From an uncultured Clostridium sp. (GTDB lineage: Bacteria; Bacillota; Clostridia; Oscillospirales; Oscillospiraceae), in the NCBI GenBank assembly GCA_904420465.1, contig CAJFVL010000013.1, forward strand, positions 1 to 33,539: a stretch of DNA of 33,539 nt, written 5' to 3'. The notes under the pieces are model-generated. The model worked only from the letters and a program-made list of their open reading frames with translations, had not been told where the DNA came from and searched no databases. Within the stretch, counting starts at the first letter, position 1; every line of letters begins with the position of its first letter. Position numbers and translations under genes: made by a program. Positions 1-22,268 of this stretch are shown here, one piece after another.

Positions 1-163
1 ACAGCTTTCCCCATTTGTCAACCGGAAAAAAGTTGAAAATTCTCAAATCTGAATATGATATGCTCTTCCACAAGAGCGGACACAATGTGTTTCCTCTATT
101 GAGGGATAGTAATGGTATGAAAAAGAGTCCGCAGAAAGGAAGAACAGGAATGAAAACAAAGAA
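1..163. other. AT-rich leading stretch, no supported gene
   Basis: This AT-rich stretch at the window edge holds no gene I can support. One reading frame runs from position 15 into the terminator and the Xre gene, but its product is basic and low in complexity, resembles no known family and has no good ribosome binding site. A short palindrome (GCTCTT, 4-base loop, AAGAGC) lies at 62-77. Confidence 0.4.
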
Positions 164-198
164 AAAACCGTGGAGCGGCAGTGCCGCTCCACGGTTTT
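164..198 (-). terminator. Strong intrinsic terminator overlapping the Xre gene stop
   Basis: A perfect 17-bp inverted repeat with almost no loop (164-180 against 182-198) is flanked by A and T runs on both sides. It can therefore end transcription from either direction. The stop codon of the minus-strand regulator at 197-199 lies inside its first arm, so it is that gene's terminator. Confidence 0.85.
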
Positions 199-409
199 AT
201 GTTTCCTCGTCCCAGTGGATCAAAAACAGGTTGTTGGTTGTGCAGTCCGAGATCTGACACAGCGTTTCGATCCGTGCAAGCTTGATGGACTTGGTTTGAT
301 TGTTCGCCGTCTTGTTGAAATTCTGGCAGCTCATCCCTATCTGCTTATAAAGCCAGGATCTGGTTTTTCCCCGCTGATTCAGCAGCGGCAGAATGTTCAT
401 CCGAACCAT
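197..409 (-). CDS. Small Xre/Cro-CI family DNA-binding regulator
   Basis: The 70-residue product is almost entirely one helix-turn-helix domain. An N-terminal helix precedes a scaffold helix (KTRSWLYKQIGMS), a recognition helix (QNFNKTANNQT) and the typical tail ending CTTNNLFLI, which matches the family pattern 'DCTPNDLFEI'. Proteins this short in the family are stand-alone DNA binders, often found on mobile elements or controlling a neighbouring operon. The start has a GAGGAA site 5 bases upstream; a second ATG three codons in is possible. The gene is more AT-rich than the housekeeping genes nearby and sits beside a repeat cluster, so acquisition by transfer is plausible. Its target is unknown. 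The family call rests on visible motif similarity only. Confidence 0.8.
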   Translation of the reverse strand: MVRMNILPLLNQRGKTRSWLYKQIGMSCQNFNKTANNQTKSIKLARIETLCQISDCTTNNLFLIHWDEET

Positions 410-435
410 AACTGTTCCTCACACATCCAAAGGGC

Positions 436-788
436 CATTTCCAACGTATATGCCGAGGGAAATGTCAAGTTCAATCTGCTTCCGCTCCCCACGGATACGG
501 GAATTCCATGTGAAAGGGGAATTTGCAGGCAGAAACACCGGGCCAAACGGCCCGGCGTGAGACTGTCGAAAAAGCGGCAAAGCCGCTTTTTCGAGAAAAT
601 AAGCACGCAAGGCGGGACTCGATTCCTAGCGAAAAAGTCGTCCCGCCTTGCGTGAGAGGTGTCATTTCCGACGTACATGCCGCCGGAAATGACGGGATTT
701 GATTTTATTCCGCCGTCTGCAGACGGCGGAACTCCTTGCAGGAGGGCTTTTTTTGACAAGCTGACGCCGGGCCAAACGGCCCGGCGTC
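436..788. repeat. Cluster of palindromic intergenic repeats, two diverged ~122-bp copies
   Basis: Two related units lie in the same orientation, at about 436-557 and 663-785. Each begins with a 29-bp imperfect palindrome (436-464 and 663-691, 25 of 29 bases the same) and ends with an identical GGGCCAAACGGCCCGGCG block (540-557 and 768-785). Between and within them are further hairpins: a 13-bp perfect stem at 566-594, a 14-bp stem at 604-617/641-654, a 20-bp perfect palindrome at 710-729 and an 11-bp stem at 763-788. No gene is supportable here; the ORFs follow the palindromes. The structure fits a degenerate non-autonomous mobile repeat. Confidence 0.75.
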
Positions 789-815
789 CCGGCATGTTGT
801 TCGGTTGGTGTTCCG

Positions 816-1298
816 TTATGCCTGTTCCCCTTTCAGGAACTCGTCCTCCTCATACTCGTTTTTCAGCCAGTCCTCATAGCTGCCGCGCACCGATTCCCAC
901 ACGGAAAGCCAGTCCACCCGGCTCAGCTCACGCTCATCCTGGAACAGGTTTTCGTAGAAGGACTGCATCTTATCCTCCGGGTTTTCCATGTACTCCTCAT
1001 AGAAGGCGTCCATGTAGGCGCCGAAGCGTGGGTCCTGGAGATTTTCCGGGCCGGCCATCGCGGCGGCAAATTCCTCCCGGGTCCAGGGCCTGCTGGTCTG
1101 GATGGAATTGGGCATGATGGACGCCCATTTAGAGAGCCGCTCCAGGTTTTTCAGAAAGCACTCACGGCCTTCCGGACTCCCCAGCAGGGGAAGGACATCT
1201 TCCACGAGGGTATAAAAAGCGTCGTCCATCTGAGCGGCTGTCCGGTCCGGTGAGGGAGACTGGGCAGGCGTCTGAACCTGGTTGTCTTTTGCTTCCAT
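816..1298 (-). CDS. Acidic orphan protein of unknown function
   Basis: I do not recognise this 160-residue protein. It is hydrophilic and strongly acidic, with a Gln/Pro/Ser-rich N-terminus and then mainly helical sequence rich in Asp, Glu, Trp and Tyr (for example EEYMENPEDK and YEDWLKNEYEEDEF). It has no signal peptide or membrane segment, so it is probably cytoplasmic. The start at 1298 is chosen because AAGGAGGAG lies about 7 bases upstream; the frame stays open further upstream, but that part overlaps the promoter. A consensus promoter lies about 75 bases upstream, so it is an independent, probably well expressed, transcription unit. It sits downstream of, and on the same strand as, the DUF421/DUF4363 pair, but is not tightly linked to it. 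Confidence 0.7.
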   Translation of the reverse strand: MEAKDNQVQTPAQSPSPDRTAAQMDDAFYTLVEDVLPLLGSPEGRECFLKNLERLSKWASIMPNSIQTSRPWTREEFAAAMAGPENLQDPRFGAYMDAFYEEYMENPEDKMQSFYENLFQDERELSRVDWLSVWESVRGSYEDWLKNEYEEDEFLKGEQA

Positions 1299-1373
1299 TT
1301 TGGACTCCTCCTTATTTTGGCAGATGATGAGGCGTTGAACTGTTGCGGCTGTGCAGGTCCTGTTCCTCGATTC

Positions 1374-1402
1374 ATTATAGCGCAGAGAAGGGGAAACGTC
1401 AA
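1374..1402 (-). promoter_or_regulatory. Consensus sigma-A promoter for the acidic orphan
   Basis: Read on the minus strand, TTGACG (1402-1397), a 17-bp spacer and a perfect TATAAT (1379-1374) precede the gene starting at 1298. The region just upstream (1403-1470) is unusually AT-rich, which may act as an UP-element-like stretch. Confidence 0.85.
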
Positions 1403-1474
1403 TTAAAATTGGACAACATATACATATTATACTATTATAATCAAACGATATTATGCAGTTAAACAAAAAGAAAG

Positions 1475-2720: not shown

Positions 2721-2787
2721 ATCTTGAAACGGTTTGCGCGGGACAGCGGACAACTGGAGAACTGGAACGGAAGGCGTGTGAGAATTG

Positions 2788-3870
2788 ATGAAAGCGACTT
2801 TGATCCTGGCCAACGGAAGCGTATTTTCCGGGACAAGCATCGGCAGCACCTCCGACCGGGTCTGTGAGATGGTGTTCAATACCTCTATGACCGGTTATCA
2901 GGAGATCCTGACAGACCCCTCTTACGCGGGGCAGGGGGTAGTGATGTCCTATCCCCTGATTGGAAACTATGGCGTCAACCATGAGGACAACGAGTCCTCC
3001 CGCCCCTGGGTGGAGGCCTTTGTGGTGCGGCACCTGTCTCCCCGGGGCAGCAATTTCCGCTGTGAGGGCACGCTGGACGACTTTTTGAAGAAGCATGATA
3101 TCACGGGTATCCAAGGGGTGGACACCCGGGCGCTGACAAAGATACTCCGCAGTCAGGGGAGCATGAACGGCATGGTCACCTGTGCGGAGCATTTTAATGT
3201 GGCCGAGGTGCTGGAGAGCCTGCGCGCCTACCGGGTGGAGGGCTCTGTGGACCGGGTGACCCGGAAGGAGCCGGAGGTGTTTCCCGCCTACGGCGAGGAG
3301 AAGCACCGCGTGGCTATGATGGACTACGGCGTTAAGCAGCACATGATCGAGTGCCTGCGCCGCCGGGGCTGCCGCGTCACCGCCTTCCCGGCCCATACCC
3401 CGGCGGAGACGGTGCTGTCCGGCGGATTTGATGGGGTGATGCTCTCCAACGGCCCCGGCGACCCGGCGGAGAATACCGCTGTCATTGCCGAGCTGAAAAA
3501 GCTGTATGAGAGCAATATCCCTCTGTTCGGCGTCTGTCTGGGGCATCAGCTTCTGGCCCTGGCCACCGGGGCCAAAACCGGCCGGCTGGATTACGGCCAC
3601 CGGGGGAGCAACCACCCCGTCCGGGACCTGGAGAAGGGCAGGGTGTTCATCACCAGCCAGAACCACGGCTATATGGTCCTGTCCGACACGGTGGATCCGG
3701 CGGTGGCCGAGGTATCCCATGTCAATGTGAACGACGGCACCTGCGAGGGCCTGCGCTACAAGCGCCCCAACTGCTTTACCACCCAGTTCCACCCCGAGGC
3801 CAACGCCGGCCCCCGGGATACCGAGTATCTGTTCAACCGCTTTGTTGCGTCTATGGGAGGTGACAAATAA
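2788..3870 (+). CDS. carA: Carbamoyl-phosphate synthase, small (glutaminase) subunit
   Basis: CarA hydrolyses glutamine and passes ammonia through a tunnel to CarB for carbamoyl phosphate, the precursor of pyrimidines and arginine. The 360-residue length is normal. The N-terminal CarA domain (about 1-150, with [19 protein letters not shown]) is followed by a class I amidotransferase domain (about 175-355). The catalytic triad is intact: Cys250 in FGVCLGHQ, and His335 and Glu337 in TQFHPEA. The start is ATG at 2788, directly preceded by an in-frame TTG; no strong ribosome binding site is visible, only a purine-rich stretch. The stop overlaps the carB start by one base (TAATG), indicating translational coupling. 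Its intact triad contrasts with the glutaminase domain of the GMP synthase two genes downstream. Confidence 0.97.
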
Positions 3871-6800
3871 TGCCGAAGAATCCTGATATCAAGAAGGTGC
3901 TGGTACTGGGCTCCGGCCCCATTGTCATCGGTCAGGCCGCCGAGTTTGACTATGCCGGCACCCAGGCCTGCCGCGCCCTGAAGGAGGAGGGGCTGGAGGT
4001 GGTGCTGGTCAACTCCAACCCCGCCACCATCATGACGGACAAGGATATCGCGGACCATGTGTATATTGAGCCGCTGAACATCCCCTCCGTCACCCAGGTC
4101 ATTGAGAAGGAGCGCCCTGACTCCATTCTGCCCACCCTGGGCGGACAGACCGGTCTGAATCTGGCCATGGCCCTCCATGAGGACGGAACCCTGGCCAAGT
4201 ACGGCGTCAAGCTGCTGGGCACCAGCCCTGACTCCATCCGCAAAGCGGAGGACCGCCAGGGCTTCAAGGACTGCATGGAGTCCATCGGCCAGCCCTGCGT
4301 CACCTCCAAGGTGGTGGAGAGCGTGGAGGACGCGGTGTCCTTTGCCGGAGAGATCGGCTATCCCGTCATCGTCCGCCCCGCCTATACCCTGGGCGGCACC
4401 GGCGGCGGCATCGCATACGACCAGGCCGGCCTGGAGGAGATCGCCGACCGGGGCATCAACCTGTCCCGCGTGGGCCAGGTGCTCATTGAGCGGTGCATCT
4501 CCGGCTGGAAGGAGATTGAGTTCGAGGTCATGCGGGACGGCGCCGGCAACGTAATCACCGTCTGCTCCATGGAGAACATTGACCCGGTGGGCGTCCACAC
4601 CGGCGACTCCATTGTGGTGGCCCCCACCCAGACCCTGGCCAACAAGGAGTTCCAGATGCTCCGCTCCGCCGCGCTGGATATCATCTCCGCCCTGGGGATC
4701 GAGGGCGGCTGCAACGTCCAGTTTGCCCTGAACCCCGATTCCTTTGAGTACGCGGTCATCGAGGTCAACCCCCGTGTGTCCCGGTCCTCTGCCCTGGCCT
4801 CCAAGGCCACCGGCTACCCCATCGCCAAGGTGGCCGCCAAGGTGGCCCTGGGCTACCGCCTGGACGAGATTCCCAACGCGGTCACCGGCAAGACCACCGC
4901 CTGCTTTGAGCCCACCATCGACTACTGCGTGCTGAAGATCCCCCGCTTGCCCTTTGACAAATTCACCACTGCCAGCCGCACCCTGGGCACCCAGATGAAG
5001 GCCACCGGCGAGGTCATGGCCATCGCCAACTCCTTCGAGGGAGCCCTGATGAAGGCCATCCGCTCCCTGGAGCTGAATGTCCGGGCCCTGAAGCTGGACA
5101 AGCTGGAGGGCCTGTACACCGACGAGATCGAGGACATGCTGGTCCAGGTCACCGATGAGCGCCTCTTTGTGGTGGCTGAGGCGCTGCGGCGGGGCTTCTC
5201 CCCCCAGAAGATCAACCATATCACAAAAATGGACATCTGGTTCCTGGACGGCTTCAAGCGGATCATCGACATGGAGGAGGAGCTGAAGGCCTGCCGGGGC
5301 GTCCCCGATGCCGACACCCTGAAGCGGGCCAAGGAGATGTGCTTCGCCGACAGCTACATCGGCACGCTGTGCGGTATGAAGCAGTCTGAGGTCAAGGCCC
5401 TGCGGGAGAAGTACGGCATCGTCCCCTCCTTCAAGATGGTGGACACCTGCGCCGCCGAGTTTGACGCCGAGACTCCCTACTACTACTCCACCTACGACGG
5501 GGAGAACGAGGCGGTGGACACCGGCGACGGCCGCAAGAAGGTGCTGGTGCTGGGCTCCGGCCCCATCCGCATCGGCCAGGGCATCGAGTTTGACTACTGC
5601 TCGGTCCACTCGGTCTGGGCCTTCAAGCGCATGGGCTACGAGACCATTATCATCAACAATAACCCGGAGACTGTCTCCACCGACTTTGACGTGGCCGACA
5701 AGCTGTACTTCGAGCCCCTCACCGCCGAGGATGTCCAGAACATCGTGGAGCAGGAGAAGCCCTGGGGCGCCGTGGTCCAGTTCGGCGGCCAGACCGCCAT
5801 CAAGCTGGCCAAGGCCCTTACCGATATGGGGGTGCGCATCCTGGGCACCTCCTCCGACGGGGTGGATGCCGCCGAGGACCGGGAGCGCTTTGACGACATC
5901 CTCCAGAAGTGCGGCATCCCCCGTGCCAAGGGCCGCACCGTCTATACCACTGAGGAGGCTCTGGCTGCCGCCCACGAGCTGGGCTATCCCGTGCTGGTCC
6001 GGCCCTCCTACGTTCTGGGCGGCCAGGGCATGGAGATCGCCTATTCCGACCGCAACATCGAAGAGTTCATGCGCATCATCAACATGACCGTCCAGGAGCA
6101 TCCCATCCTGGTGGACAAGTACCTCATGGGCCGGGAGCTGGAGGTGGACGGCGTGTTCGACGGGGAGGACATCCTCATCCCCGGCATCATGGAGCATGTG
6201 GAGCGGGCCGGCGTCCACTCGGGCGACTCCATCGCGGTCTATCCGCCCCTCCACCTGGAGGACAAGCACCGGGAGCTGATCCTGAAGCACACCAAGAACA
6301 TGGCCAAGCACCTGGGGGTCATTGGGCTCATCAACGCCCAGTATATCCTCTATAACGACGACATCTATGTCATCGAGGTCAATCCCCGCTCCTCCCGCAC
6401 CATCCCTTATATCTCCAAGGTCACCGGGGTCCCCATCATCGACCTGGCCACCAAGGTGATGCTGGGGCAGAAGCTGAAGGATCTGGACTACGGCACCGGC
6501 ATCTACAAGGAGGCCGATTACTTCGCCGTCAAGGCCCCGGTGTTCTCCTTTGAGAAGCTCACCGACGTGGACACCGGCCTGGGCCCCGAGATGAAGTCCA
6601 CCGGCGAGGTGCTGGGACTGGCTGAGACCTTCCCTCAGGCCCTGCTCAAGGCCTTCAAGGGGGCCGGACTGAAGGTGCCCAAGCGGGGCGGCCGCATCAT
6701 CATCACCGTGAAGGACGAGGACAAGGGGGAGATCGTCTCCATCGCCCGGGGCTTTGAGGAGATGGGCATCGAGCTGTACGCCACCTCGGGCACCTGCCAG

Positions 6801-7079
6801 GTGCTCAACGACGCGGGCATCGAGTGCAAGCGGGTCAACCGGGTCTCCCAGTCCCACCCCAACATCCTGGACATGATTCAGAGCGGCACCATCGACCTGA
6901 TTATCAACACCCCCACCCGGGGCCGCAAGCACGACTCCGACGGCTTCCGCATCCGCCGCTCCGCCGTGGAGCACGGGGTGGGCTGTGTCACCGCCATCGA
7001 CACCGCCCGGGCGCTCCTCACCGTCCGGCAGCAGAGCCGCAGCGAGGACCTGACCCCCATTGACATTACCAAAATTTGA
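3870..7079 (+). CDS. carB: Carbamoyl-phosphate synthase, large subunit
   Basis: CarB makes carbamoyl phosphate from bicarbonate, ammonia supplied by CarA, and two ATP. At 1069 residues it is full length. It has two homologous ATP-grasp halves (about 1-400 and 550-935), each opening with the same motif ([20 protein letters not shown] and [19 protein letters not shown]), an oligomerisation region between them, and a C-terminal MGS-type allosteric domain from about residue 937, where UMP and ornithine act in characterised enzymes. Glycine-rich ATP-binding loops are visible ([24 protein letters not shown]). It overlaps carA by one base. A single carAB copy here would have to serve both arginine and pyrimidine synthesis; that is inference from this window only. 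The strand opposite carries a long open frame that is a codon-bias shadow. Confidence 0.98.
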
Positions 7080-7109
7080 GCTTCGGATTCCCGTTTCGCA
7101 GCCAGACGT

Positions 7110-7148
7110 TTTGGAGGTGCCCGCCCTCAAAAGGCGGGCACCTCCAAA
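7110..7148. repeat. Perfect 16-bp hairpin between carB and guaA
   Basis: A perfect 16-bp stem (7110-7125 against 7133-7148) encloses a 7-base loop, CTCAAAA. It lies 31 bases after carB and about 57 bases before guaA. It is not followed by a T tract on the plus strand, so it is not a classical terminator. It could protect or process a carAB-guaA transcript, or weakly attenuate it. No separate promoter for guaA was recognised. Confidence 0.7.
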
Positions 7149-7204
7149 GAGACAGCAGGAAAAGCCTGGTCCATACCGGCTGACAGAAAGAAAGGAGCGC
7201 CACC

Positions 7205-8494
7205 ATGAAACAGGACATGATCGTCATTCTGGACCTGGGCAGCGAGGAAAACCCCCGTCTGGCCCGGGAGATCCGCGCCCTCGGCGTATATTCGGAAATT
7301 TATCCCCACGACATCACCCTGGAGCAGCTGAAGGCCCTGCCCAATGTAAAGGGCGTCATTCTCAACGGCGGCCCCAACCGGGTGGTGGACGGCGTGGAGA
7401 TTGACGTCTCTCAGGACATCTATAACTGCGACCTGCCTGTCCTCCTGGCCGACCACAAGGGGGACGCCCCCTGGCCGGAGGAGGAGGGGGCCCGGAAGGA
7501 GGCCATCTCCAACTTCGTCTTTGGCCTGTGCGGCGCCCAGGCCAACTGGAATATGGAAAACTTCATCGCCGACCAGGTGGAGCTGATCCGCCGCCAGGTG
7601 GGGGACAAGAAGGTGCTGCTGGCCCTGTCCGGCGGGGTGGACTCCTCGGTGGTGGCCGCCCTGCTCATCCGGGCCATCGGCAGCCAGCTTACCTGCGTCC
7701 ACGTCAACCACGGCCTGCTGCGCAAGGGCGAGCCCGAGCAGGTGGTGAAGGTGTTTCGGGACCAGCTGGGGGCCAACCTCATCTATGTGGACGCGGTGGA
7801 CCGCTTCCTGGATAAGCTGGCCGGGGTGTCCGACCCGGAGCGCAAGCGGAAGATCATCGGCGCGGAGTTCATCCGCGTCTTTGAGGAGGAGGCCCGCAAG
7901 CTGGACGGCATCGAGTTCCTGGCCCAGGGGACCATCTACCCCGACATCATCGAGTCGGGCACCAAGACAGTCAAGGCGGTCAAATCCCACCACAACGTGG
8001 GCGGCCTGCCCGAGGACCTGAAGTTTGAGCTGGTGGAGCCCCTGAAGATGCTCTTCAAGGACGAGGTGCGCGCCTGCGGCGCGGCCCTGGGCCTGCCCGA
8101 CTCTATGGTGTACCGCCAGCCCTTCCCCGGCCCCGGTCTGGGGGTGCGCTGCCTGGGGTCCATCACCCGGGACCGACTGGAGGCGGTGCGGGAGAGCGAC
8201 GCCATTCTCCGGGAGGAGTTTGCCAAAAACGGCCTGGAGGGCAAGGTGTGGCAGTACTTCACCGTGATCCCCGACCTGAAGAGCGTAGGCGTGCGGGAGG
8301 GCCGCCGGGCCGACGAGTGGTGCGCCATCATCCGCGCCGTCAATACGGTGGACGCTATGACCGCAACTGTGGAGAACGTGCCCTTCGATCTGCTCCAGCA
8401 TATCACCGCCCGCATCACCGCTGAGGTGAAGGGGGTCAACCGGGTGCTGTTTGACCTGACGCCCAAGCCCACGGGGACCATTGAATGGGAATAA
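7205..8494 (+). CDS. guaA: GMP synthase with a catalytically deleted glutaminase domain
   Basis: The ATP-pyrophosphatase half is complete: PP-loop SGGVDSS at residues 142-148, the dimerisation domain and the C-terminal signature ending LSPKP-like TPKPTGTIEWE, so amination of XMP to GMP is expected. The N-terminal amidotransferase domain is reduced to about 107 residues. It keeps the first strands (MIVILDLGSEEN, GVYSEIYPHD, GVILNGGPNRVVDG) and the last helix (AISNFVFGLCG). About 85-90 residues are missing in between, including the GICYG nucleophile elbow and the His/Glu pair; where the elbow should be, the sequence reads LPVLLADHKGD. The total of 429 residues compares with 510-525 usually. The reading frame is clean, with AAAGGAGCG before the ATG, so this is not an obvious pseudogene. 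It should depend on free ammonia or on a separate glutaminase. It follows carAB on the same strand. Confidence 0.93.
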   Translation: MKQDMIVILDLGSEENPRLAREIRALGVYSEIYPHDITLEQLKALPNVKGVILNGGPNRVVDGVEIDVSQDIYNCDLPVLLADHKGDAPWPEEEGARKEAISNFVFGLCGAQANWNMENFIADQVELIRRQVGDKKVLLALSGGVDSSVVAALLIRAIGSQLTCVHVNHGLLRKGEPEQVVKVFRDQLGANLIYVDAVDRFLDKLAGVSDPERKRKIIGAEFIRVFEEEARKLDGIEFLAQGTIYPDIIESGTKTVKAVKSHHNVGGLPEDLKFELVEPLKMLFKDEVRACGAALGLPDSMVYRQPFPGPGLGVRCLGSITRDRLEAVRESDAILREEFAKNGLEGKVWQYFTVIPDLKSVGVREGRRADEWCAIIRAVNTVDAMTATVENVPFDLLQHITARITAEVKGVNRVLFDLTPKPTGTIEWE

Positions 8495-8503
8495 CTGGAA
8501 TTT

Positions 8504-8547
8504 AAAAGCCCGCAGAGCCTATCATATCTGGGCTCTGCGGGCTTTTT
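8504..8547 (+). terminator. Intrinsic terminator of guaA
   Basis: A perfect 16-bp stem (8504-8519 against 8531-8546) with a loop of about 11 bases is followed by TTTTT, ten bases after the guaA stop. Its right arm is closely repeated in the terminator near 9191-9210. Confidence 0.95.
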
Positions 8548-8693
8548 GCGTCTCATTGGCTGTGAGATTCAGATTTGACGGATACCGTTGAACAGCAGGA
8601 AAAGGCCGCAAGCGGCCCCGGCGCTCCGTTGACCGGGGAGAGCGATAAGAAACTAAAATTAAGAAAACCCTAATAGATTTATATGATTTGTTG

Positions 8694-8702
8694 TGTTATA
8701 CT
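8694..8702 (+). promoter_or_regulatory. Extended -10 promoter for the small AT-rich ORF
   Basis: TGT followed by TATACT (8697-8702) forms an extended -10 element. The -35 position holds only a weak match. The short gene with its AAAGGAGG site begins about 55 bases downstream. Confidence 0.5.
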
Positions 8703-8756
8703 GTACTCAAAATAAGCAGGGGGATTGTGTCACAAATTATATAAAGGAGGAATTTT

Positions 8757-8939
8757 TTGGATATTAAACTCACAGAAAAAGAGGCGATTGCTTTATATAG
8801 AATTATCCTGCGCTGGGACGAAACTAATTTGATTACAACACAGGATACGGAAGAACAGCAATTACTTTGGGATTTACACTGTATATTGGAGAAAGAACTG
8901 GAGCCAGTAAATGATGACATTACTTATAGGCTTGTCTAA
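8757..8939 (+). CDS. Small hypothetical protein, AT-rich, probably acquired
   Basis: The 60-residue product is acidic and helical (DIKLTEKEAIALYRIILRWD and LLWDLHCILEKELEPVND). I do not recognise it. The start is TTG at 8757, supported by a strong AAAGGAGG site 6 bases upstream and an extended -10 promoter. Codon use is AT-rich, unlike the GC-rich genes on both sides, and it lies in a segment flanked by two similar terminators, so it probably came in with an accessory element. A short helical product of this kind could be a regulatory or element-maintenance protein, but nothing in the sequence establishes that. Good signals make it likely to be translated. Confidence 0.6.
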   Translation: MDIKLTEKEAIALYRIILRWDETNLITTQDTEEQQLLWDLHCILEKELEPVNDDITYRLV

Positions 8940-9165
8940 AAGTGTTATGGAGGTAAACTTAAGTGATGTTACTGATGATATAGCGTAGTTCAGAAGTAAA
9001 TTCCAGGCTATCGGGAAGATAGCAGTCCCGGTCGGGGCCGTCAATGGTCAAGATGAACGGCGCACCTTTGTGCGCTGCCATTGACTGTCCCGCCCGGCCC
9101 TGCTCCGCAGCTAAAGCAAGTGTATCCTGGCCGAAACCCTTTCTCTTTGGGAATAGTTGAAAGCT
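8940..9165. other. Structured accessory spacer, no supported gene
   Basis: This stretch has no convincing ORF. It contains a large imperfect hairpin: GTCAATGG at 9040-9047 pairs with CCATTGAC at 9078-9085, with GCGCA/TGCGC nested inside and a partly matched extension outward (about 9034-9091). On the minus strand a frame reads ILTIDGPDRDCYLPDSLEF and then continues to 8959 without belonging to a family I can name. The mixture of AT-rich and GC-rich DNA suggests a decayed mobile-element remnant. Confidence 0.4.
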
Positions 9166-9208
9166 GTAACCCCGCGGAGGCCTGATTACAGGCTCTGCGG
9201 GGCTTTTT
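9166..9208 (+). terminator. Intrinsic terminator closing the accessory segment
   Basis: An imperfect GC-rich stem (about 9168-9182 against 9190-9203) with a short ATTA loop runs into CTTTTTGC. The right arm GGCTCTGCGGGGCTTTTTGC (9191-9210) nearly repeats that of the guaA terminator at 8531-8549. Confidence 0.8.
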
Positions 9209-9287
9209 GCACGCCCCGCGGGGAGATCCGTGCCCCTCTTTTTGAAAACGCGGGCTGCTTCAGAACGGAAGAGGACACTGAATTGCC

Positions 9288-9316
9288 TTGCGGTGTGGGA
9301 CGAAACATGATACAAT
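9288..9316 (+). promoter_or_regulatory. Promoter of the GH25 muramidase gene
   Basis: TTGCGG (9288-9293), a 17-bp spacer and TACAAT (9311-9316) lie about 55 bases before the chosen start. Confidence 0.65.
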
Positions 9317-9370
9317 CAACCAAAAAGCGACAGGATGCGTCTGAATACCCGGCCGGCGCACCGGAGGAGA

Positions 9371-10321
9371 ATGGAGCGTGGTGGCGCGATGGAGGACCGG
9401 ATGGACCCGCGGCGGCCTGAGGGTGGGACAGAGTACCCCCGTCCCAGGCGCAGGAGGGGCGGCGGAGGCTGGAAGGGGAAGCTGCCCCTGCTTCTTGCGG
9501 CGGCGGCCCTGGCGGTGGCCTGCTTCAGCTTGTACTTGACCCTTTCCAATGACCGGGAGGAGCCGGCGGAGCCGGAACCGGAGACCTTTTTGTATGGGGA
9601 CCGGCGGCTGGAGGTGCTGGAAGGCGTGCCCCTGAATCAATATGACCCCGCAGCCTTCACGCTGGAGGAGTCGGGGCGGGTGAGCTATCAGGGGGATGAG
9701 GTGTCCGTGCGTTCGGGCGTCGACGTCTCGGTCCACCAGGGGGAGATCGACTGGCAGGCGGTGGCGGCGGACGGCGTGGATTTTGCCATGATCCGACTGG
9801 GCTACCGGGGCTATACCCAGGGAGGCCTGAATCTGGATAACTGTTTTCAGCAGAACATGCAGGGGGCGCTGGAGGCGGGGCTGGATGTGGGAGTTTACTT
9901 CTTTTCCCAGGCCATCTCCGAGGAGGAGGCGCGGGAGGAAGCCGATTTTGTGCTTCAGGCACTGGAGGCGTATGATCTGAGCGGCCCCGTGGCCTTTGAC
10001 TGGGAGTTTATCACGCCGGGAAACGGGGCCAGGACAGATGGAATGGACGGCGAGACCCTGACCCGCTGTGCCCTGGCCTTCTGCGGCCGGGTACAGGAGG
10101 CGGGGTTTCAGCCCCTGATTTATTTCAACAAAAACCTGGGCTATTTAACCTACGATCTGTCCCAGCTGACGGAGTATCCTTTCTGGCTGGCCGAGTACGA
10201 CAGTGTGCCCGAGTTTTACTACCATTTCGGCCTGTGGCAGTACAGCAACCAGGGAGCGGTGGCCGGAATCCAGGGGAACGTGGACCTGAATCTGGAGCTG
10301 CGCTGGAAGCAGAAGGAGTAG
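9371..10321 (+). CDS. Membrane-anchored glycoside hydrolase family 25 muramidase
   Basis: GH25 enzymes cleave the beta-1,4 bond between N-acetylmuramic acid and N-acetylglucosamine in peptidoglycan. After an Arg/Pro/Gly-rich cytoplasmic tail (about residues 1-36), a single membrane anchor (about 37-58) and a linker, the GH25 barrel starts near residue 115 with GVDVSVHQGEIDW. The proposed catalytic acids are present: the Asp of DVS and the acidic pair in VAFDWEF. YFFSQAISEEEA, YFNKNLGY and LWQYSNQGAVAGIQGNVDLN complete the fold. The active domain should face the cell wall. Start choice is uncertain: ATG 9371 has GGAGGA very close (3 bases), while ATG 9335 and 9389 are in frame. It is a single-gene unit with its own promoter and terminator. 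A role in wall remodelling is more likely than phage lysis because no phage genes lie nearby. Confidence 0.93.
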   Translation: MERGGAMEDRMDPRRPEGGTEYPRPRRRRGGGGWKGKLPLLLAAAALAVACFSLYLTLSNDREEPAEPEPETFLYGDRRLEVLEGVPLNQYDPAAFTLEESGRVSYQGDEVSVRSGVDVSVHQGEIDWQAVAADGVDFAMIRLGYRGYTQGGLNLDNCFQQNMQGALEAGLDVGVYFFSQAISEEEAREEADFVLQALEAYDLSGPVAFDWEFITPGNGARTDGMDGETLTRCALAFCGRVQEAGFQPLIYFNKNLGYLTYDLSQLTEYPFWLAEYDSVPEFYYHFGLWQYSNQGAVAGIQGNVDLNLELRWKQKE

Positions 10322-10322
10322 G

Positions 10323-10362
10323 AAAAGGCCGGTTCAGTTTAGGAAACTGGACCGGCTTTTCG
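10323..10362 (+). terminator. Intrinsic terminator of the muramidase gene
   Basis: AAAAGGCCGGTTCAGTTT pairs almost perfectly with AAACTGGACCGGCTTTT across a 3-base loop, starting just after the stop codon. Confidence 0.9.
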
Positions 10363-10381
10363 TTTCAAAAGGAGCTGCGCG

Positions 10382-11467
10382 TCAGAGAGCCAGAATTTCG
10401 TCTCCAATGGACTGAGCCATCTGGTCGGCCAGGGAGAAGTCCACCCAGGGGTTGTAGACAGCCTCCAGGTCATCATGCATGGCCTTGGCCTGGGCCAGGG
10501 AGATTACCGCCTCCTCCTCCACGGCGGCGGCGACCTTCCGGGCAAAGCGCAGCCTGGGACGGCTGCGGCGCAGCAGCTCTCGGTCGGCGGCCGCGTCCAG
10601 CCGGATTCGTCGGTAGGGGTCGCCGGGGAAGGGAAGGGCCGGAGAGGAGGAGAGAAAGGCCAGCCCCAGCTGGGGAATGAGAAGGTGGGCGAGACGGTCG
10701 GGAGCCATGGGGTCCGGGCAGGCTACCACGTCAAAGCCGGCAGCGGCGGCGCCGGCCAGCAGGGGGGAGAGCAGCTCGTGGGCCAGACCATAGCCGTCTG
10801 ACAGCTCATAGATTCGATCACATTGGGCCAGGGCCGTGCCGTACAGGCACAGCCGCCCCCTGTGGGTGACGGCGCCCAGGAAGCGCTGCTTCACCCGCCC
10901 TGGAAGCGCGGCGTCCCTTCTGCGGCCCAGCTCCCGGGCCAGGATTCCCCGGGCCCGCTTGGCCAGCTTTTCAGACAAGGAATCGGTGAGCAGGGTGGTG
11001 CGGATGTCCTCCGCAATGCTGGCCGAGGCGTCCAGACAGCGGTAGGCCCGCTGATAGCAGCCCTTGTAGCCGGACATGCAGGACATGATTTCCTCCCGCA
11101 GGGGAAACAGGGCGGCCGTGTTGTAGCAGAGTCCCATATTCACATAGCGCTCCACTGCCCCGGGATATTTGGGCTCCACCACATGGGGCGCTGTCCCGTC
11201 CACCAGGGCCACCTTCAGCTGGGGCAGCACCAGGGCGTCCAGCGAGGCCGGGTCCCCGGAGCACAGGATGTACTCGGTTTCCAGTCCCTCCAGCTCCATG
11301 CGGGCGCCGATGCGGCGCATCAGGGTGGATTTGCCGCAGCCGGGTCCCCCCTTGAGGATGTAGATGGCTCTGGCCTCCGCCGGGGGCAGCAGCTCGCTGT
11401 AGAGGGAATAGAAGCCAGAGGGGGCGTTGGCCCCGAGGAAATATTCAATATGAGGTAAAGCAGACAT
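10382..11467 (-). CDS. P-loop ATPase of the PRK06851 type
   Basis: This 361-residue protein carries a clear Walker A motif, GGPGCGKST, at residues 40-48, following FLGANAPSGFYSLYSELL, which is typical of the PRK06851 group of P-loop proteins found in spore-forming Firmicutes. Its biochemical role is unknown to me. The C-terminal half repeats the layout (FLGAVTHRGRLCLYG... then GFDVVACPDPM), but at the place where I expect a second P-loop the sequence is SDGYGLAHELL, so only the first nucleotide site looks functional. That comparison is from memory of the family. No signal peptide or membrane segment is seen. The start is ATG 11467 with GGAGGG 6 bases upstream. It is divergent from the zinc transporter operon and has no obvious partner gene. 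Confidence 0.75.
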   Translation of the reverse strand: MSALPHIEYFLGANAPSGFYSLYSELLPPAEARAIYILKGGPGCGKSTLMRRIGARMELEGLETEYILCSGDPASLDALVLPQLKVALVDGTAPHVVEPKYPGAVERYVNMGLCYNTAALFPLREEIMSCMSGYKGCYQRAYRCLDASASIAEDIRTTLLTDSLSEKLAKRARGILARELGRRRDAALPGRVKQRFLGAVTHRGRLCLYGTALAQCDRIYELSDGYGLAHELLSPLLAGAAAAGFDVVACPDPMAPDRLAHLLIPQLGLAFLSSSPALPFPGDPYRRIRLDAAADRELLRRSRPRLRFARKVAAAVEEEAVISLAQAKAMHDDLEAVYNPWVDFSLADQMAQSIGDEILAL

Positions 11468-13395: not shown

Positions 13396-14240
13396 TGGAG
13401 CTTTGGTATGCTCTGGTGGACCTGCTGCCCTTTGAGTGGGCGGAGACCGGGTCCATGTACTTTATGAAGAACGCCCTGCTGGCCGTTCTGGTTATTTCCC
13501 CACTGTTCGGAATCTTGTCCACCATGGTGGTCCACAGCCGGATGTCCTTCTTCTCCGACGCCCTGGGCCACTCCGCCTTTACCGGCATGGCCATCGGGGC
13601 CCTGTGCGGCTTTGCCGAGCCCACCTGGGCTGCGGTTGTTTTCGCGGTGATTTTCGCCCTGCTGTTCAACTGGGTGCGCCGCCGCTCCGCCCTGGCCAGC
13701 GACACGGTGATCGGGGTGTTCTCCTCCACCGCCGTGGCCCTGGGCATCCTCATTTCCACCCTGAACGGCCGCTCCTTCACCCGGTTCAACAGCCTGCTCA
13801 TCGGCGACATTCTGTCGGTGGAGCCCGGCAAGATCGGCCTGCTGGCCCTGATTCTGCTGCTGATCTGCGCCCTGTGGGCCCTGTCCTTCAACCAGCTGAT
13901 GCTCTCCGCCGTCCACCCCGCCCTGGCGGACAGCCGGGGAGTGCGGGTGTTCTGGCAGGAGGCGGTGTTCTCGGTGGCCATCGCCGTGGTGGTCACCCTG
14001 TCCATGACCTGGGTGGGCCTGCTGGTCATCAACTCCCTGCTGGTGCTGCCCGGGGCGGCGGCCCGGAATGTGTCACGCAACCTGTTTCAGTATCACCTGG
14101 TTTCCCTGCTGGGGGCGTTGGGGTCCGGAATTGCCGGCCTGATGACCTCCTACTACATCGGCGCCTCGGCGGGCGCCGCCATTACCCTGTATCTGGCGGC
14201 CTGGTTTCTGATCACCTTCCTGCTGCGGAAGCGGGGGTAA
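13395..14240 (+). CDS. znuB: Zinc-type ABC transporter permease
   Basis: This ABC-3 family permease of 281 residues has about eight hydrophobic membrane helices and the family blocks SRMSFFSDALGHSAFTGMAIG and SFTRFNSLLIGDILSV. It forms the membrane channel of the metal importer. ATG 13395 overlaps the znuC stop by one base; a GTG directly before it is also possible, with GGAGGC upstream. The transporter operon ends here: the methyltransferase gene follows after about 40 bases with its own ribosome binding site and may be transcribed by read-through. Confidence 0.94.
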   Translation: MELWYALVDLLPFEWAETGSMYFMKNALLAVLVISPLFGILSTMVVHSRMSFFSDALGHSAFTGMAIGALCGFAEPTWAAVVFAVIFALLFNWVRRRSALASDTVIGVFSSTAVALGILISTLNGRSFTRFNSLLIGDILSVEPGKIGLLALILLLICALWALSFNQLMLSAVHPALADSRGVRVFWQEAVFSVAIAVVVTLSMTWVGLLVINSLLVLPGAAARNVSRNLFQYHLVSLLGALGSGIAGLMTSYYIGASAGAAITLYLAAWFLITFLLRKRG

Positions 14241-19021: not shown

Positions 19022-19044
19022 AGCCCCAACAACTCAATCAGCAC

Positions 19045-19308
19045 CAAACCTGTGAGAAAGAGTAGTACCCGGCACAGCAAACCTTCAGAGAGCCCTGGAT
19101 GGTGGGACCAGGGCGGGGCGCGGCCGAGGGAATGGACTTTCGAGGGCGGCTTGAACGGGCAACCAAGTAGATGCCGACGGGGACCCACCCGTTATCCACC
19201 GGGCACGCGTGATGGCGCGTGAAGCGAGCGGACGTCGCAGACGTCAATTTGGGTGGTATCGCAGGAGTACGGCTCTTGTCCCATGTGGGATGAGGGGCGT
19301 TTTTTTAT
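19045..19308 (+). promoter_or_regulatory. T-box riboswitch with a Trp specifier
   Basis: The leader shows the ordered T-box landmarks. There is an AGTA loop-E-type motif near 19061, an AGAGAGCC segment and a GATGGTGGGACC distal loop (19098-19110). The specifier loop is GAATGGACTTTC with TGG (Trp) at 19133-19135, and the T-box itself is GGGTGGTATCGCAGGA (19251-19266). An intrinsic terminator follows (stem about 19272-19299, T run 19300-19306). Uncharged tRNA-Trp should stabilise the antiterminator and switch on the downstream transporter. The bulge reads UGGU rather than the UGGC expected for a G73 discriminator, so pairing would need a G-U wobble or an A73 tRNA. Confidence 0.93.
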
Positions 19309-19422
19309 TCTCCGGAATAAAAAATAGTCAAATACTCCCAATCAAGGCCGTTGGCAGCGGTCCCTCCATCGCCCACCCAGAGATATTTCAGCCCAACGGG
19401 CAACATAATGGAGGTTATCACA

Positions 19423-20487
19423 ATGAAACAGAACAGCACCATGAAGAAGATCCTGGCCGCGGCCCTCTCTCTGGCCATGGCCCTGTCCCTGGCCGCCTGC
19501 TCCGGCGGCACCTCCGGCTCCGGCACCACCGGCGGCGCAAGCTCCTCCGACACCTCCGGCTCCGGTTCAGGCTCCTCCGGCGGTACCACCTACAAGGTGG
19601 CCATCGTCAAGCAGCAGGACCACGCCTCCATGGACGAGATCGCAAACGCCATCGCCGCCCGGCTGGACGAGATCGCGGCGGAGCAGGGCGTCACCATCGA
19701 CTACGGCCAGATCTACAGCGGCCAGGGGGATGAGACCACCCTGAACCAGATCGGCGCCCAGGTGGTGGCCGACGGCGTGGACGTGATCATTCCCATCGCC
19801 ACCACCGCCGCCCAGCTGATGACGGTGGCCGCCGAGGGCAGCGGCATCCCCGTGGTGTACGCTGCCGTCAGCGACCCGGAGCAGGCCGACCTGCTGGGAC
19901 TGGAGGGGGTTACCGGCATCAGCGACGCCCTGAACACCGAGTTTATCCTGGACATGATGCTGGCCCAGAACCCGGAGATCCAGACCGTGGGCCTGCTCTA
20001 CTCCATGTCCGAGCCCAACTCCACCAAGCCCATCGCCGAGGCCAAGGCCTACCTGGAGGGGAAGGGTATCGCCTATGAGGAGTTTACCGCCACCACCAAC
20101 GACGAGGTCATCGCCGCCGCCGGCGCCCTCATTGCCGCCGGGGTGGACGCGGTGTTCACCCCCACCGACAACAAGATCATGGACGCGGAGCTGGCCATCG
20201 CCCCCGACCTGGCCGAGGCGGGCATCCCCCACTACACCGGGGCCGACTCCTTCGTCCGCAACGGGGCCTACGCCACCTGCGGCGTGAACTATACCCGGCT
20301 GGGGGCCGAGGCGGCCGACCTGGCCTATGAGGTCCTTGTGAACGGAATCGCGGATAAGGAGGACTACTACCTGTCCGAGGGAGGCATCATCACCGTCAAC
20401 ACCGAGACTGCCGCCGCCCTGGGCCTGGACTACTCCCTCTTTGCCGACATGGGCGAGCTGGTGGAGGTCACAACCACCGAGGACTGA
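19423..20487 (+). CDS. trpX: Tryptophan-type ABC transporter substrate-binding lipoprotein
   Basis: The 354-residue protein belongs to the ABC_sub_bind family (PF04392). It has a lipoprotein signal peptide with lipobox LAACSGG, a Gly/Ser/Thr-rich flexible linker (about residues 27-55), then the binding domain with YKVAIVKQQDHASMDEI, VIIPIATTAAQLM, VYAAVSDPEQA and VFTPTDNKIMDAE. It should sit outside the membrane and deliver substrate to the permease. Tryptophan as substrate is inferred from the Trp T-box directly upstream, the known arrangement for trpXYZ. The start at ATG 19423 has GGAGG upstream and gives a clean signal peptide; the open frame upstream overlaps the leader and is rejected. 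Confidence 0.93.
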   Translation: MKQNSTMKKILAAALSLAMALSLAACSGGTSGSGTTGGASSSDTSGSGSGSSGGTTYKVAIVKQQDHASMDEIANAIAARLDEIAAEQGVTIDYGQIYSGQGDETTLNQIGAQVVADGVDVIIPIATTAAQLMTVAAEGSGIPVVYAAVSDPEQADLLGLEGVTGISDALNTEFILDMMLAQNPEIQTVGLLYSMSEPNSTKPIAEAKAYLEGKGIAYEEFTATTNDEVIAAAGALIAAGVDAVFTPTDNKIMDAELAIAPDLAEAGIPHYTGADSFVRNGAYATCGVNYTRLGAEAADLAYEVLVNGIADKEDYYLSEGGIITVNTETAAALGLDYSLFADMGELVEVTTTED

Positions 20488-20521
20488 TTTCACCCAAAAA
20501 CTGCCTGATTGATCTGCCAGT

Positions 20522-20548
20522 CCCTCCGGCGGGAGCGCCGGAGGGGCT
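20522..20548 (+). repeat. Intercistronic hairpin between trpX and trpY
   Basis: CCCTCCGGCG pairs perfectly with CGCCGGAGGG around a GGAG loop, followed only by GCTTT. It may protect the 3' end of the trpX message or partly terminate, lowering permease expression relative to the binding protein. Confidence 0.7.
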
Positions 20549-20572
20549 TTGGCCCGAAAGGATGAGTCAACG

Positions 20573-21478
20573 ATGCTCTATATCCTCCAGACCGCCCTGG
20601 AGCTGGGCTTCCTCTATGCCCCCGTGGCTCTGGCCCTGTTCCTCAGCTACCGCATCCTGGACATCGCCGACCTGACCACCGACGGGTGCTTCACCCTGGG
20701 GGCGGCGGTGTCTGTGGTGGTGTGCGCCGCCGGGCACCCCATCCTGGCCGTTCCGGCGGCCATGGCCACCGGGGCGGCGGCGGGCTTTGTTACCGCCCTG
20801 CTCCAGACCAAGCTGGGGGTGCCCTCCATCCTGGCGGGTATTGTCACCAACACCGGCCTGTACACCGTCAACCTGATGGTGATGGGCTGGACCTCCACCG
20901 CCAGTCTCATCCGGCAGAACACCATCTTCCGCATGTTCGAGAGCACCGGCATCGGCGGGGACTGGTGCGACATCATCCTGGGCGGCGCAGTTACGGTGGG
21001 GGCCGCCCTGCTGCTGGTGGCCTTTCTGGGCACCCGGCTGGGGCTGTCCATCCGGGCCACCGGGGACAACCGGGACATGGTCCAGGCCTCCTCCATCAAT
21101 CCCACCTTCACCATCACGGTGGGCCTGTGCATCGCCAACGCCCTCACCGGCCTGTCCGGGGCCCTGGTGGGCCAGGCCCAGCGCAGCGCCAACGTGAACC
21201 TCGGCACCGGCATGGTGGTCATCGGGCTGGCCTGCCTCATCATCGGGGAGACGGTGGTGGGCCGGGGCTCCATGCTCCGGGGCGCCCTGTCCGTCTTTGT
21301 GGGCAGCATCATCTACCGCATCATCTACGCCGTGGCTCTCAGCTCCCGCATCTTCCCCATCGAGGCCATGAAGCTGGTGACCGCTGTCATCGTGGGGCTG
21401 GCCATCGCCGCCCCCGCCATCAAGCGGTGGGCGGCCCTCCAGCGGCGGAAGGCCGCGGCAGGAAAGGGGGCGCGCTGA
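20573..21478 (+). CDS. trpY: Tryptophan-type ABC transporter permease
   Basis: The 301-residue membrane protein has about eight hydrophobic helices and the branched-chain-type permease blocks DIADLTTDGCFTLGAAVS, PSILAGIVTNTGLYTVNLMV and GTRLGLSIRATGDNRDMVQA, the last being the likely coupling segment that contacts the ATPase. It forms the pore of the importer. ATG 20573 is chosen with AAGGA about 11 bases upstream; an in-frame TTG at 20549 would add eight polar residues. It follows trpX after a hairpin and ends one base before trpZ, so it is part of the same T-box-controlled operon. Confidence 0.92.
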   Translation: MLYILQTALELGFLYAPVALALFLSYRILDIADLTTDGCFTLGAAVSVVVCAAGHPILAVPAAMATGAAAGFVTALLQTKLGVPSILAGIVTNTGLYTVNLMVMGWTSTASLIRQNTIFRMFESTGIGGDWCDIILGGAVTVGAALLLVAFLGTRLGLSIRATGDNRDMVQASSINPTFTITVGLCIANALTGLSGALVGQAQRSANVNLGTGMVVIGLACLIIGETVVGRGSMLRGALSVFVGSIIYRIIYAVALSSRIFPIEAMKLVTAVIVGLAIAAPAIKRWAALQRRKAAAGKGAR

Positions 21479-21479
21479 T

Positions 21480-22268
21480 ATGCTGAAGCTGGACCACATC
21501 TCCAAGACCTTCAACCCGGGCACCGTCAATGAGAAAAAGGCGCTGGAGGGGGTGACCCTCCATCTGGTCCCCGGGGATTTTGTGACCATCGTGGGCTCCA
21601 ACGGGGCGGGCAAGTCCACCCTGTTCAACGCGGTGGCGGGGGACTTCTATGTGGACGAGGGGTCTATCACCCTGGACGGAGAGGATATCACCTATCTGCC
21701 CGCCCACCGCCGCAGCCGTCAGATCGGCCGGCTGTTCCAGGATCCCCTGCGGGGGACCGCCCCCCACATGACCATCGAGGAGAATCTGGCCCTGGCCGCG
21801 GGGAGCGGGGGCTGGTTCGCCCGCATGACCCGGCAGGACAAGGCCCGCTTCCGGGACCGGCTGGCCCTGCTGGAGATGGGGCTGGAGGACCGGATGAAAC
21901 AGCCGGTGGGCCTCCTCTCCGGCGGGCAGCGGCAGGCCCTCACCCTGCTCATGGCCACCATGAACCCGCCCAAGCTGCTGTTGCTGGACGAGCACACCGC
22001 CGCTTTGGACCCGGCCACGGCGGAGAAGGTGCTCTCCCTCACCCGGCAGATTGTGGAGGAGCACCACATCACGACCATGATGGTCACCCACAATATGAAA
22101 AACGCTCTGGAGCTGGGCAGCCGCACCCTGATGATGGACGGGGGGCGGATCGTCCTGGACGTTCAGGGGGAGGAGCGAAAGGGCATGACGGTGAACGACC
22201 TGCTGGTCCGGTTCCGGGCCGGGGCGGGGAAGGAACTGGACAACGACCGGATTCTGCTCTCCGATTGA
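21480..22268 (+). CDS. trpZ: Tryptophan-type ABC transporter ATP-binding protein
   Basis: The 262-residue ATPase has Walker A GSNGAGKST, Q-loop RLFQDPLRGT, ABC signature LLSGGQRQA, Walker B LLLLDEHTAALDP and switch His VTHN. It carries EHTA after Walker B, where most ABC ATPases have EPT; this variant is common in this transporter group. It drives uptake through TrpY. The start codon follows the trpY stop by one base. It is the last gene of the operon and is followed by a large hairpin. Confidence 0.93.
   Translation: MLKLDHISKTFNPGTVNEKKALEGVTLHLVPGDFVTIVGSNGAGKSTLFNAVAGDFYVDEGSITLDGEDITYLPAHRRSRQIGRLFQDPLRGTAPHMTIEENLALAAGSGGWFARMTRQDKARFRDRLALLEMGLEDRMKQPVGLLSGGQRQALTLLMATMNPPKLLLLDEHTAALDPATAEKVLSLTRQIVEEHHITTMMVTHNMKNALELGSRTLMMDGGRIVLDVQGEERKGMTVNDLLVRFRAGAGKELDNDRILLSD

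Follow-up and report, generated by a model that had tools for sequence, protein, structure and literature searches.

Can a guaA gene whose product has lost the glutaminase active site still encode a working GMP synthase, and where would the nitrogen come from? The window (the whole stretch of 33,539 nucleotides analysed, from an uncultured Clostridium sp. of the Oscillospiraceae) contains such a gene, with AAGGAG preceding its ATG, and the clean reading frame described in a sequence-only reading was confirmed as an open frame of 429 aa (Table 1). The synthetase half, likewise read as intact, is matched from end to end by TIGR00884 (guaA_Cterm; residues 119–429, profile positions 1–310 of 310), with 451.9 bits against a cut-off of 338.75. 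TIGR00888 (guaA_Nterm) reaches 51.5 bits against a cut-off of 172.15 and covers profile positions 1–74 of 188; by this profile the protein lacks a complete GuaA glutaminase domain, and Pfam GATase matches residues 8–80 only (profile positions 2–76 of 190). The whole-protein profile NF000848 gives 541 bits, above its cut-off of 400, but its best stretch is residues 98–429. NF000848 describes the glutamine-hydrolysing GMP synthase, which we take to be EC 6.3.5.2; the ammonia-dependent GMP synthase is presumably EC 6.3.4.1. The window genome is a draft of 2.35 Mb in 133 contigs (88.6% complete) and carries a second, complete guaA (515 aa) on another contig. Compared with this full GuaA, the short form is missing 86 aa (258 bp), close to the gap of about 260 bp estimated before. 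The amidotransferase domain is indeed cut short, but its remnant, thought to end at about residue 107, runs to about residue 117 and consists of a conserved core (1–66), a variable elbow and linker (83–98) and a retained C-terminal helix.

Table 1. Positions of the features discussed, in the window or in the locus named.
Feature	Positions	Strand	Basis or remark
Window: short guaA, glutaminase-less GMP synthase, 429 aa	7205..8494	+	open reading frame and profile matches
Window: class-I glutaminase remnant, residues 1–117	7205..7555	+	profiles, conservation, dN/dS, model
Window: helix alpha1, residues 16–25	7250..7279	+	A20, R21, R24 invariant in 78/78
Window: former nucleophile elbow LPVLLADHKGD, residues 77–87	7433..7465	+	alignment; replaces GICYG
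Window: intact ATP-pyrophosphatase/synthetase and dimerisation part, residues 118–429	7556..8491	+	profiles, structure matches
Window: PP-loop SGGVDS, residues 142–147	7628..7645	+	invariant in 45/45
Window: DxxES of interface helix alpha11 (D247, E250, S251)	7943..7957	+	invariant in 78/78
Window: KDEVR of interface helix alpha12, residues 285–289	8057..8071	+	invariant in 78/78
Window: C-terminal signature KPTGTIEWE, residues 421–429	8465..8491	+	
Window: carA, upstream neighbour	2785..3870	+	full catalytic residues GVCLGHQ and HPE
Window: carB, directly upstream of short guaA	3870..7079	+	125 bp gap to short guaA
L090 (Caryophanon tenue): purine riboswitch RF00167	5719-5820	+	
L090 (Caryophanon tenue): second purine riboswitch	13410-13511		
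L135 (G059): purF, carA, remnant-free GMP synthetase, purC	6451-10685	-	
L116: remnant-free form	5944-6921	+	
L121: free remnant-domain protein without synthetase	6571-6918	-	
L122: free remnant-domain protein without synthetase	6835-7203	-	
L123: free remnant-domain protein without synthetase	1107-1451	+	
L176 (G176): full-length guaA	6325-7851	+	one in-frame TAG in glutaminase match
L191 (G160): remnant-free GMP synthetase	2-799	-	3' end cut by contig
L193 (G455): distant truncated GMP synthase, 437 aa	2865-4175	+	
L194 (G342, order of Bacteroides): divergent 324-aa frame	3247-4218	+	below family cut-off

The active site was compared in an alignment of 78 short forms, 55 from a one-genome-per-species scan, 22 from relatives and one from the window. 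From the scan the best 80 of at least 589 relatives were retained, all of them short or remnant-free forms and a few cut by contig ends; L001 and L003 (duplicates of the window and of L002) and the incomplete short forms L022, L093 and L102 were dropped. PILGICYGCQ of the genome's own full GuaA aligns with PVLLADHKGD of the short form, and the column of the nucleophile, which is C in 21 of 21 full GuaA proteins, holds D in 52 short forms, G in 19, E in 3, A in 2, K in 1 and a gap in 1, and Cys in none. The columns of the triad His and Glu lie in the deleted stretch and are gaps in all 78. The Cys-His-Glu triad is present in 21/21 full and 0/78 short forms, which bears out the replaced elbow and the missing dyad noted at the outset. 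On the synthetase side, D247, E250, K260, H262, H263, N264 and K285 are invariant in 78/78 short forms, and R413, K421, P422, T425, I426, E427, E429 and the PP-loop in 45/45. The lid K-x-H-H-N, DxxES, KDEVR, the PP-loop and the C-terminal signature residues, the motifs by which an ATPPase domain was recognised, are all present. D247, E250, K260, H262, H263, K285, R413, K421 and E427 were equated with residues of PfGMPS named in PMC10526850 by motif and spacing. The alignments show the short forms to have no glutamine site, since the triad is absent and about 86 aa of the glutaminase are deleted, and to retain the catalytic synthetase residues examined.

A gene of this kind could be a decaying copy or the product of an assembly deletion. 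When full forms are included, 57 of 60 relatives match the window protein somewhere, and 22 of the 60 match residues 1–429 at 72–91% identity, so the same deletion is conserved among relatives. The sequence-only reading had stated that a second complete guaA would refute it if relatives also lacked the short form; the second gene exists, but the form is present in these 22, and the reading is therefore not refuted. The sources of the scan include contigs titled Bacteroides oleiciplenus, Parabacteroides goldsteinii, Anaerotruncus massiliensis and Caryophanon tenue, and nearly all the forms belong to Bacillota or Bacteroidota; two others are from MAGs, one with the title Victivallaceae (Lentisphaerota) and one with the title Kiritimatiellaeota, although such titles can be mistaken. 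Many of the bacteria with glutaminase-less forms are gut bacteria. Misassembly is excluded because short forms recur across the contigs of many species. Short guaA is rarer outside the order than within: in the order of Bacteroides it occurs in 2 of 99 genomes, of which one is the chosen centre and each also carries a full gene, and in the phylum sample in at least 10 of 299 (E up to 1e-130), including the window's own and G455.

Mean pairwise identity among the 78 short forms is 73% for residues 1–66, 40% for 67–82, 29% for 83–98 and 58% for 99–117, and 85% and 76% for the two parts of the synthetase. The corresponding values for 21 full GuaA proteins, a set differing in breadth from the short forms, are 55% for the N-terminal half of the glutaminase and 63% for the synthetase. 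Median dN/dS, calculated over 237 close pairs drawn from 27 genes without gaps, was 0.074 for the remnant core (1–66), 0.237 for 67–82, 0.328 for 83–98 and 0.233 for 99–117, compared with 0.066 for residues 118–318 and 0.092 for residues 319–429 of the synthetase. The remnant core is under purifying selection as strong as that on the synthetase, and its low dN/dS against the high value of 83–98 shows that selection maintains the core and constrains the position of the former elbow less. The variable, faster-evolving elbow and linker (mean identity 29%, median dN/dS 0.33) is what decay would predict, but the same architecture in 78 sequences from many genomes, the intact frame and the strong purifying selection on the core leave decay or an assembly deletion with practically no probability; the conservation of the short form excludes both, and the earlier judgement in favour of selection stands.

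The gene content of the order indicates what the short form may be doing. The sample comprised 108 genomes, at least 95% complete except the window's own, of which 104 have a GMP synthetase domain; they were sorted by hand on open-frame length, all loss-only cases being checked on the DNA and the others partly. Full-type genes only were found in 51 of the 104, counting G176 (in-frame TAG), G103 (a divergent 637-aa frame) and G100 and G171 (contig-end cuts), and both kinds in 31 (the full gene of G077 being cut by a contig end). The TAG-bearing guaA is the sole GMP synthetase-domain match of G176. The glutaminase-less form is the only one in 19 of the 104, at 70–84% identity to the window protein (G038, G046, G051, G052, G055, G056, G057, G068, G071, G088, G089, G099, G102, G112, G115, G126, G138, G148 and G174); G136, G160 and G162, with genes cut by contig ends, are three further genomes outside the 19. 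Four of the 108 genomes (G157, G158, G167 and G175) have no GMP synthase, yet have an IMP dehydrogenase (IMPDH) homologue, over the cut-off in three; absence of a gene in these drafts is therefore not always real, and about 4% serves as the rate at which a gene is either missed in a draft or truly lacking. By arithmetic, if each of the 50 intact carriers had a full gene as well, hiding at that rate would make about 2 of them appear loss-only, against the 19 observed. An IMPDH homologue was found in 18 of the 19, over the family cut-off in 13 (below it in G046, G057, G112, G115 and G174), and the search of the loss-only genomes found none in G056. These species thus appear to make XMP, and no other enzyme from XMP to GMP is visible in them. 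A GuaA-type GATase (TIGR00888) over the cut-off, as a separate subunit would require, was found in 0 of the 19; sub-cut-off GATase matches occur in most, the best at 103.7 bits with one stop (G068). Together, the comparisons show a conserved, selected form, and about one-fifth of the sampled genomes of the order have no other detectable GMP synthase. As a side observation, the divergent frame L194 is the only GMP synthetase match of G342 and is possibly archaeal-type.

The reading that we consider probable is that short guaA encodes an active GMP synthase which converts XMP, ATP and free ammonia or ammonium to GMP and makes no use of glutamine. The sequence-only reading had proposed an ammonia-dependent or partner-dependent enzyme whose remnant is retained as a scaffold or docking surface, and the results support that proposal. 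In known GMPSs, the synthetase module is described as working independently of the glutaminase and as accepting external ammonia (PMC10526850, PMC4673825). The C89A variant of PfGMPS keeps its ammonia activity and loses its glutamine activity (PMC4673825), and the Km for NH4Cl of C89A/C113A is given as 6.7-fold lower than that of wild type (PMC10526850, PMC4673825). Known GMPSs have a much higher Km for NH4Cl (up to 174 mM) than for glutamine (PMC10526850), so ammonia use in the cell would need high ammonium or a better site. In the window genome and in 30 others, the short form need not carry the flux, since a full GuaA is also there.

Two other accounts keep the protein functional. In the first, the short form would be a partner-dependent synthase that receives ammonia from a second protein, either by pairing with full GuaA or by using the remnant or its synthetase face to borrow the glutaminase of CarA or of some other class-I enzyme. 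Sharing of a glutaminase has a precedent in PabA/TrpG. Several genomes have full and glutaminase-less genes in tandem (G058, G031 and G049; L061, L071, L072, L096 and L120), and carAB adjoins the short gene in the window and in G010, with the window's CarA keeping its full triad, as had been noted; in G059, a remnant-free synthetase immediately follows carA, and the stretch examined there contains no carB match. CarA-sized GATase frames (identity by frame length) also lie 3–6 kb from full guaA in G003, G011, G012, G016, G019 and G031, which argues that carAB linkage is not specific to the short form. G055 (98% complete) and G057 (97%) have one class-I GATase match each, in frames of 223 and 204 aa, and G046 (97%) has one weak match in a 311-aa frame; none of these three genomes has a CarA-sized match, and CarA as a dedicated partner was rejected on both grounds. 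The 19 genomes with neither a full GuaA nor a GuaA-type GATase over the cut-off favour ammonia over a partner. Species that have full GuaA or CarA might employ a partner glutaminase, but this can hardly be general; as an account of the short form, it is unlikely. The second account makes the short form a paralogue with another job, which would either regulate full GuaA by forming mixed dimers or act as a PP-loop enzyme on a different substrate. Coexistence of both kinds in 31 of the 104 genomes, at times in tandem, would suit a regulator, as would the conserved C-terminal signature and R413 of the dimer and XMP region. The invariant residues of the XMP and ATP sites, the 19 genomes in which the short form stands alone (18 with an IMPDH homologue) and the purine context of the genes speak against it, and we regard it as improbable; a regulatory role is possible where both genes occur, but leaves the 19 unexplained.

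That context is seen in several genomes. In Caryophanon tenue (L090), the first purine riboswitch lies 180 bp upstream of short guaA, and full guaA then follows the short gene; no other purine riboswitch besides those of L090 was found in 44 sources, not all of which include the short gene with its upstream region. A remnant-free synthetase stands in a row of purine genes in G059 (Table 1) and adjoins purC in G071. The riboswitch, the rows of purine genes and the tandem pairs point to purine synthesis. Many other neighbours of glutaminase-less genes are unrelated (DUF1846, methyltransferase, DAP dehydrogenase, GH43, SLH). Two further elements of the window were noted. Between carB and short guaA, a perfect 13-bp inverted repeat with a 7-base loop and no T run, which may be a terminator, an attenuator or a repeat element, was seen by eye (7113-7145), and at 19043-22265 a T-box leader (RF00230) precedes genes for an ABC substrate-binding protein, a permease and an ATPase, likely an amino-acid importer.

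The history of the loss was traced in trees of the synthetase part alone, with 108 rows and later, after thinning, 90 and then 54. From the 108-row tree, 20 short and 7 remnant-free rows had been thinned out, and only full-type rows were added from a further locus set. All the glutaminase-less forms of these sets group into a single clade (SH-aLRT 100 with 108 rows; 100/99 with 90 rows, bootstrap not settled), and full GuaA proteins fall outside it. Remnant-free forms sit in a derived part of this main clade, except L100 and L108, which are labelled remnant-free and look like short forms cut by contig ends; since the remnant-free forms are derived within the clade, the catalytic half was probably lost first, the remnant being retained and only later lost. 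In the 108-row tree, the majority of the Bacteroidota sequences fall together inside the Clostridia, which suggests transfer. Three further glutaminase-less genes, in G455, G160 and G077, are more distant. The protein of G455 (L193) has no triad and, by eye and alignment, shows the same elements as that of the window (strand 1, alpha1, strand 2, helix 2, strands 3 and 4, C-terminal helix); its synthetase is on average 59.5% identical to one-third of the short forms and 60.1% to the full ones, which favours neither side. It lies outside the main clade in the 90-row tree and is sister to it in the 54-row tree (54/85, not firm). An independent, convergent truncation in G455 was dropped on the latter placement, and the gene could represent an early offshoot of the main clade's own loss. 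The G160 gene (L191), downstream of purF-carA-carB, is sister to the full GuaA of G077 (100/99, 90 rows), and its placement in the main clade is rejected (p-AU 0.0002, 54 rows). On these trees, the glutaminase has therefore been lost at least twice, in the main clade and in the G160 gene; for the second gene of G077 (L178), p-AU against placement in the main clade is 0.26.

Why the main clade would keep half a domain may be read from its interface. In GMPSs, the GATase helix alpha1, with (K/R)(K/R)XRE, is described as facing DXXES of alpha11 and KD(D/E)V(K/R) of alpha12 on the synthetase (PMC10526850). The first basic residue (R21) and the later R24 of alpha1 are invariant in all 78 short forms, but E or A mostly occupies the second basic position and A mostly replaces the final Glu; the motif is thus half kept. 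These changes may mean that the cross-talk that switches on the glutaminase is gone while docking stays, or may argue against tight docking. A model of the window protein, built from 45 sequences (pLDDT 85.5, pTM 0.82), shows the remnant as a compact alpha/beta mini-domain with blocks at pLDDT 86–97; the lid loop has low confidence, a stretch un- or partly mapped in most crystal structures. The top PDB matches are GMP synthetases over both domains (7SBC, TM 0.83 by query). From the invariant interface residues, the compact remnant of the model and the two-domain structural matches, we infer that the remnant may be a fixed cap, which would retain the docking face minus the glutamine pocket; a docking role fits these observations. 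Such a cap would not be indispensable in every lineage, given that remnant-free relatives exist. The model of a remnant-free form is poor (pLDDT 65, 16 sequences). In the alignment of these 16, the remnant-free forms, such as L116, share N-terminal NKRPExMERITT and a shortened lid loop, ESDGVKAHHN. Free remnant proteins of 114–122 aa, 52–61% identical to one another and without the triad, occur in G187, G014 and G036 and may be relics or small regulators; an EF-G/TetM-like gene was seen by eye alongside L122 and L123.

In the proposed mechanism, the short GMP synthase would take ammonia as its nitrogen donor. The remnant would fold back onto the synthetase, with alpha1 against alpha11 (DxxES) and alpha12 (KDEVR) as in unrotated full enzymes, and the docked remnant would keep both lid and active site in their ATP-charging form, with none of the rotation by which full enzymes deliver glutamine. 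A derived subclade has probably dispensed with the remnant entirely, and species with both enzymes might use the short form when ammonium is plentiful and the full form when it is scarce. The free 114–122-aa protein may act in trans on full GuaA. Taken jointly, the picture of bacterial GMP synthases divided, like NAD synthetases, into glutamine and ammonia types, with at least two losses, a cap formed in the main clade from the beta1-alpha1-beta2...C-terminal-helix piece that locks the charging state, and a free piece working in trans is tentative, and in our estimate somewhat more doubtful than credible.

GMP synthetase is a classic glutamine amidotransferase. Bacterial and eukaryotic GMPSs have been described as two-domain and archaeal ones as two-subunit enzymes (PMC10526850, PMC9312489; 2022–2023). 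With two-domain GuaA (E. coli 1GPM, A. baumannii 7SBC), the short form shares the fold of the synthetase and dimerisation domains, the synthetase-side interface motifs and a homologous N-terminal half of the glutaminase; it differs in having no Cys-His-Glu triad, with about 86 aa of the glutaminase deleted. The archaeal ATPPase subunit (M. jannaschii 6JP9, P. horikoshii 2DPL) is likewise a synthetase chain without an active glutaminase, and 6JP9 matches the model of the window protein with a TM of 0.94 by target length; the archaeal type has a separate GATase subunit, whereas none over the cut-off was found in the 19 loss-only genomes. The fusion of the remnant to the synthetase suggests that the short form arose from an ancestor with two domains. 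Ammonia-type (type N) NadE, also an adenylating synthetase without a glutaminase, appears comparable, although it belongs to a different family. Table 1 of a 2012 survey gives NAD synthetase a value of 44 under 'No Glnse' in 886 genomes (PMC3376133). For GMP synthetase, surveyed in 730 genomes, the 'Fusion' entry is 100, meaning 100% fused to the glutaminase, and the 'No Glnse' entry is empty (PMC3376133). Human CPS1 is described as retaining an inactive ancestral glutaminase-like domain and taking ammonia from its surroundings (PMC4655335); CPS1 swapped Cys for Ser, kept the domain and has an unrelated synthetase, whereas short GuaA has half the domain deleted. No report of a glutaminase-less bacterial GMP synthase was found among the titles and abstract openings searched in the open-access literature. 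A natural, conserved class with a selected remnant thus seems undescribed, while its expected chemistry is known in vitro.

A guaA of Bacteroides thetaiotaomicron (BT_4265), of full or short form, is reported to affect gut fitness (PMC4380924). If the short forms are a conserved bacterial class without glutaminase, their automatic annotation as glutamine-hydrolysing GMP synthase is incorrect, and the GMP supply of some gut anaerobes may be tied directly to ammonium. The family would also offer a natural removal of the glutaminase with part of the allosteric interface kept, and short forms allow the role of that interface in synthesis to be tested separately from glutamine hydrolysis. Inhibitors directed at the glutamine site of GuaA should leave the short forms unaffected.
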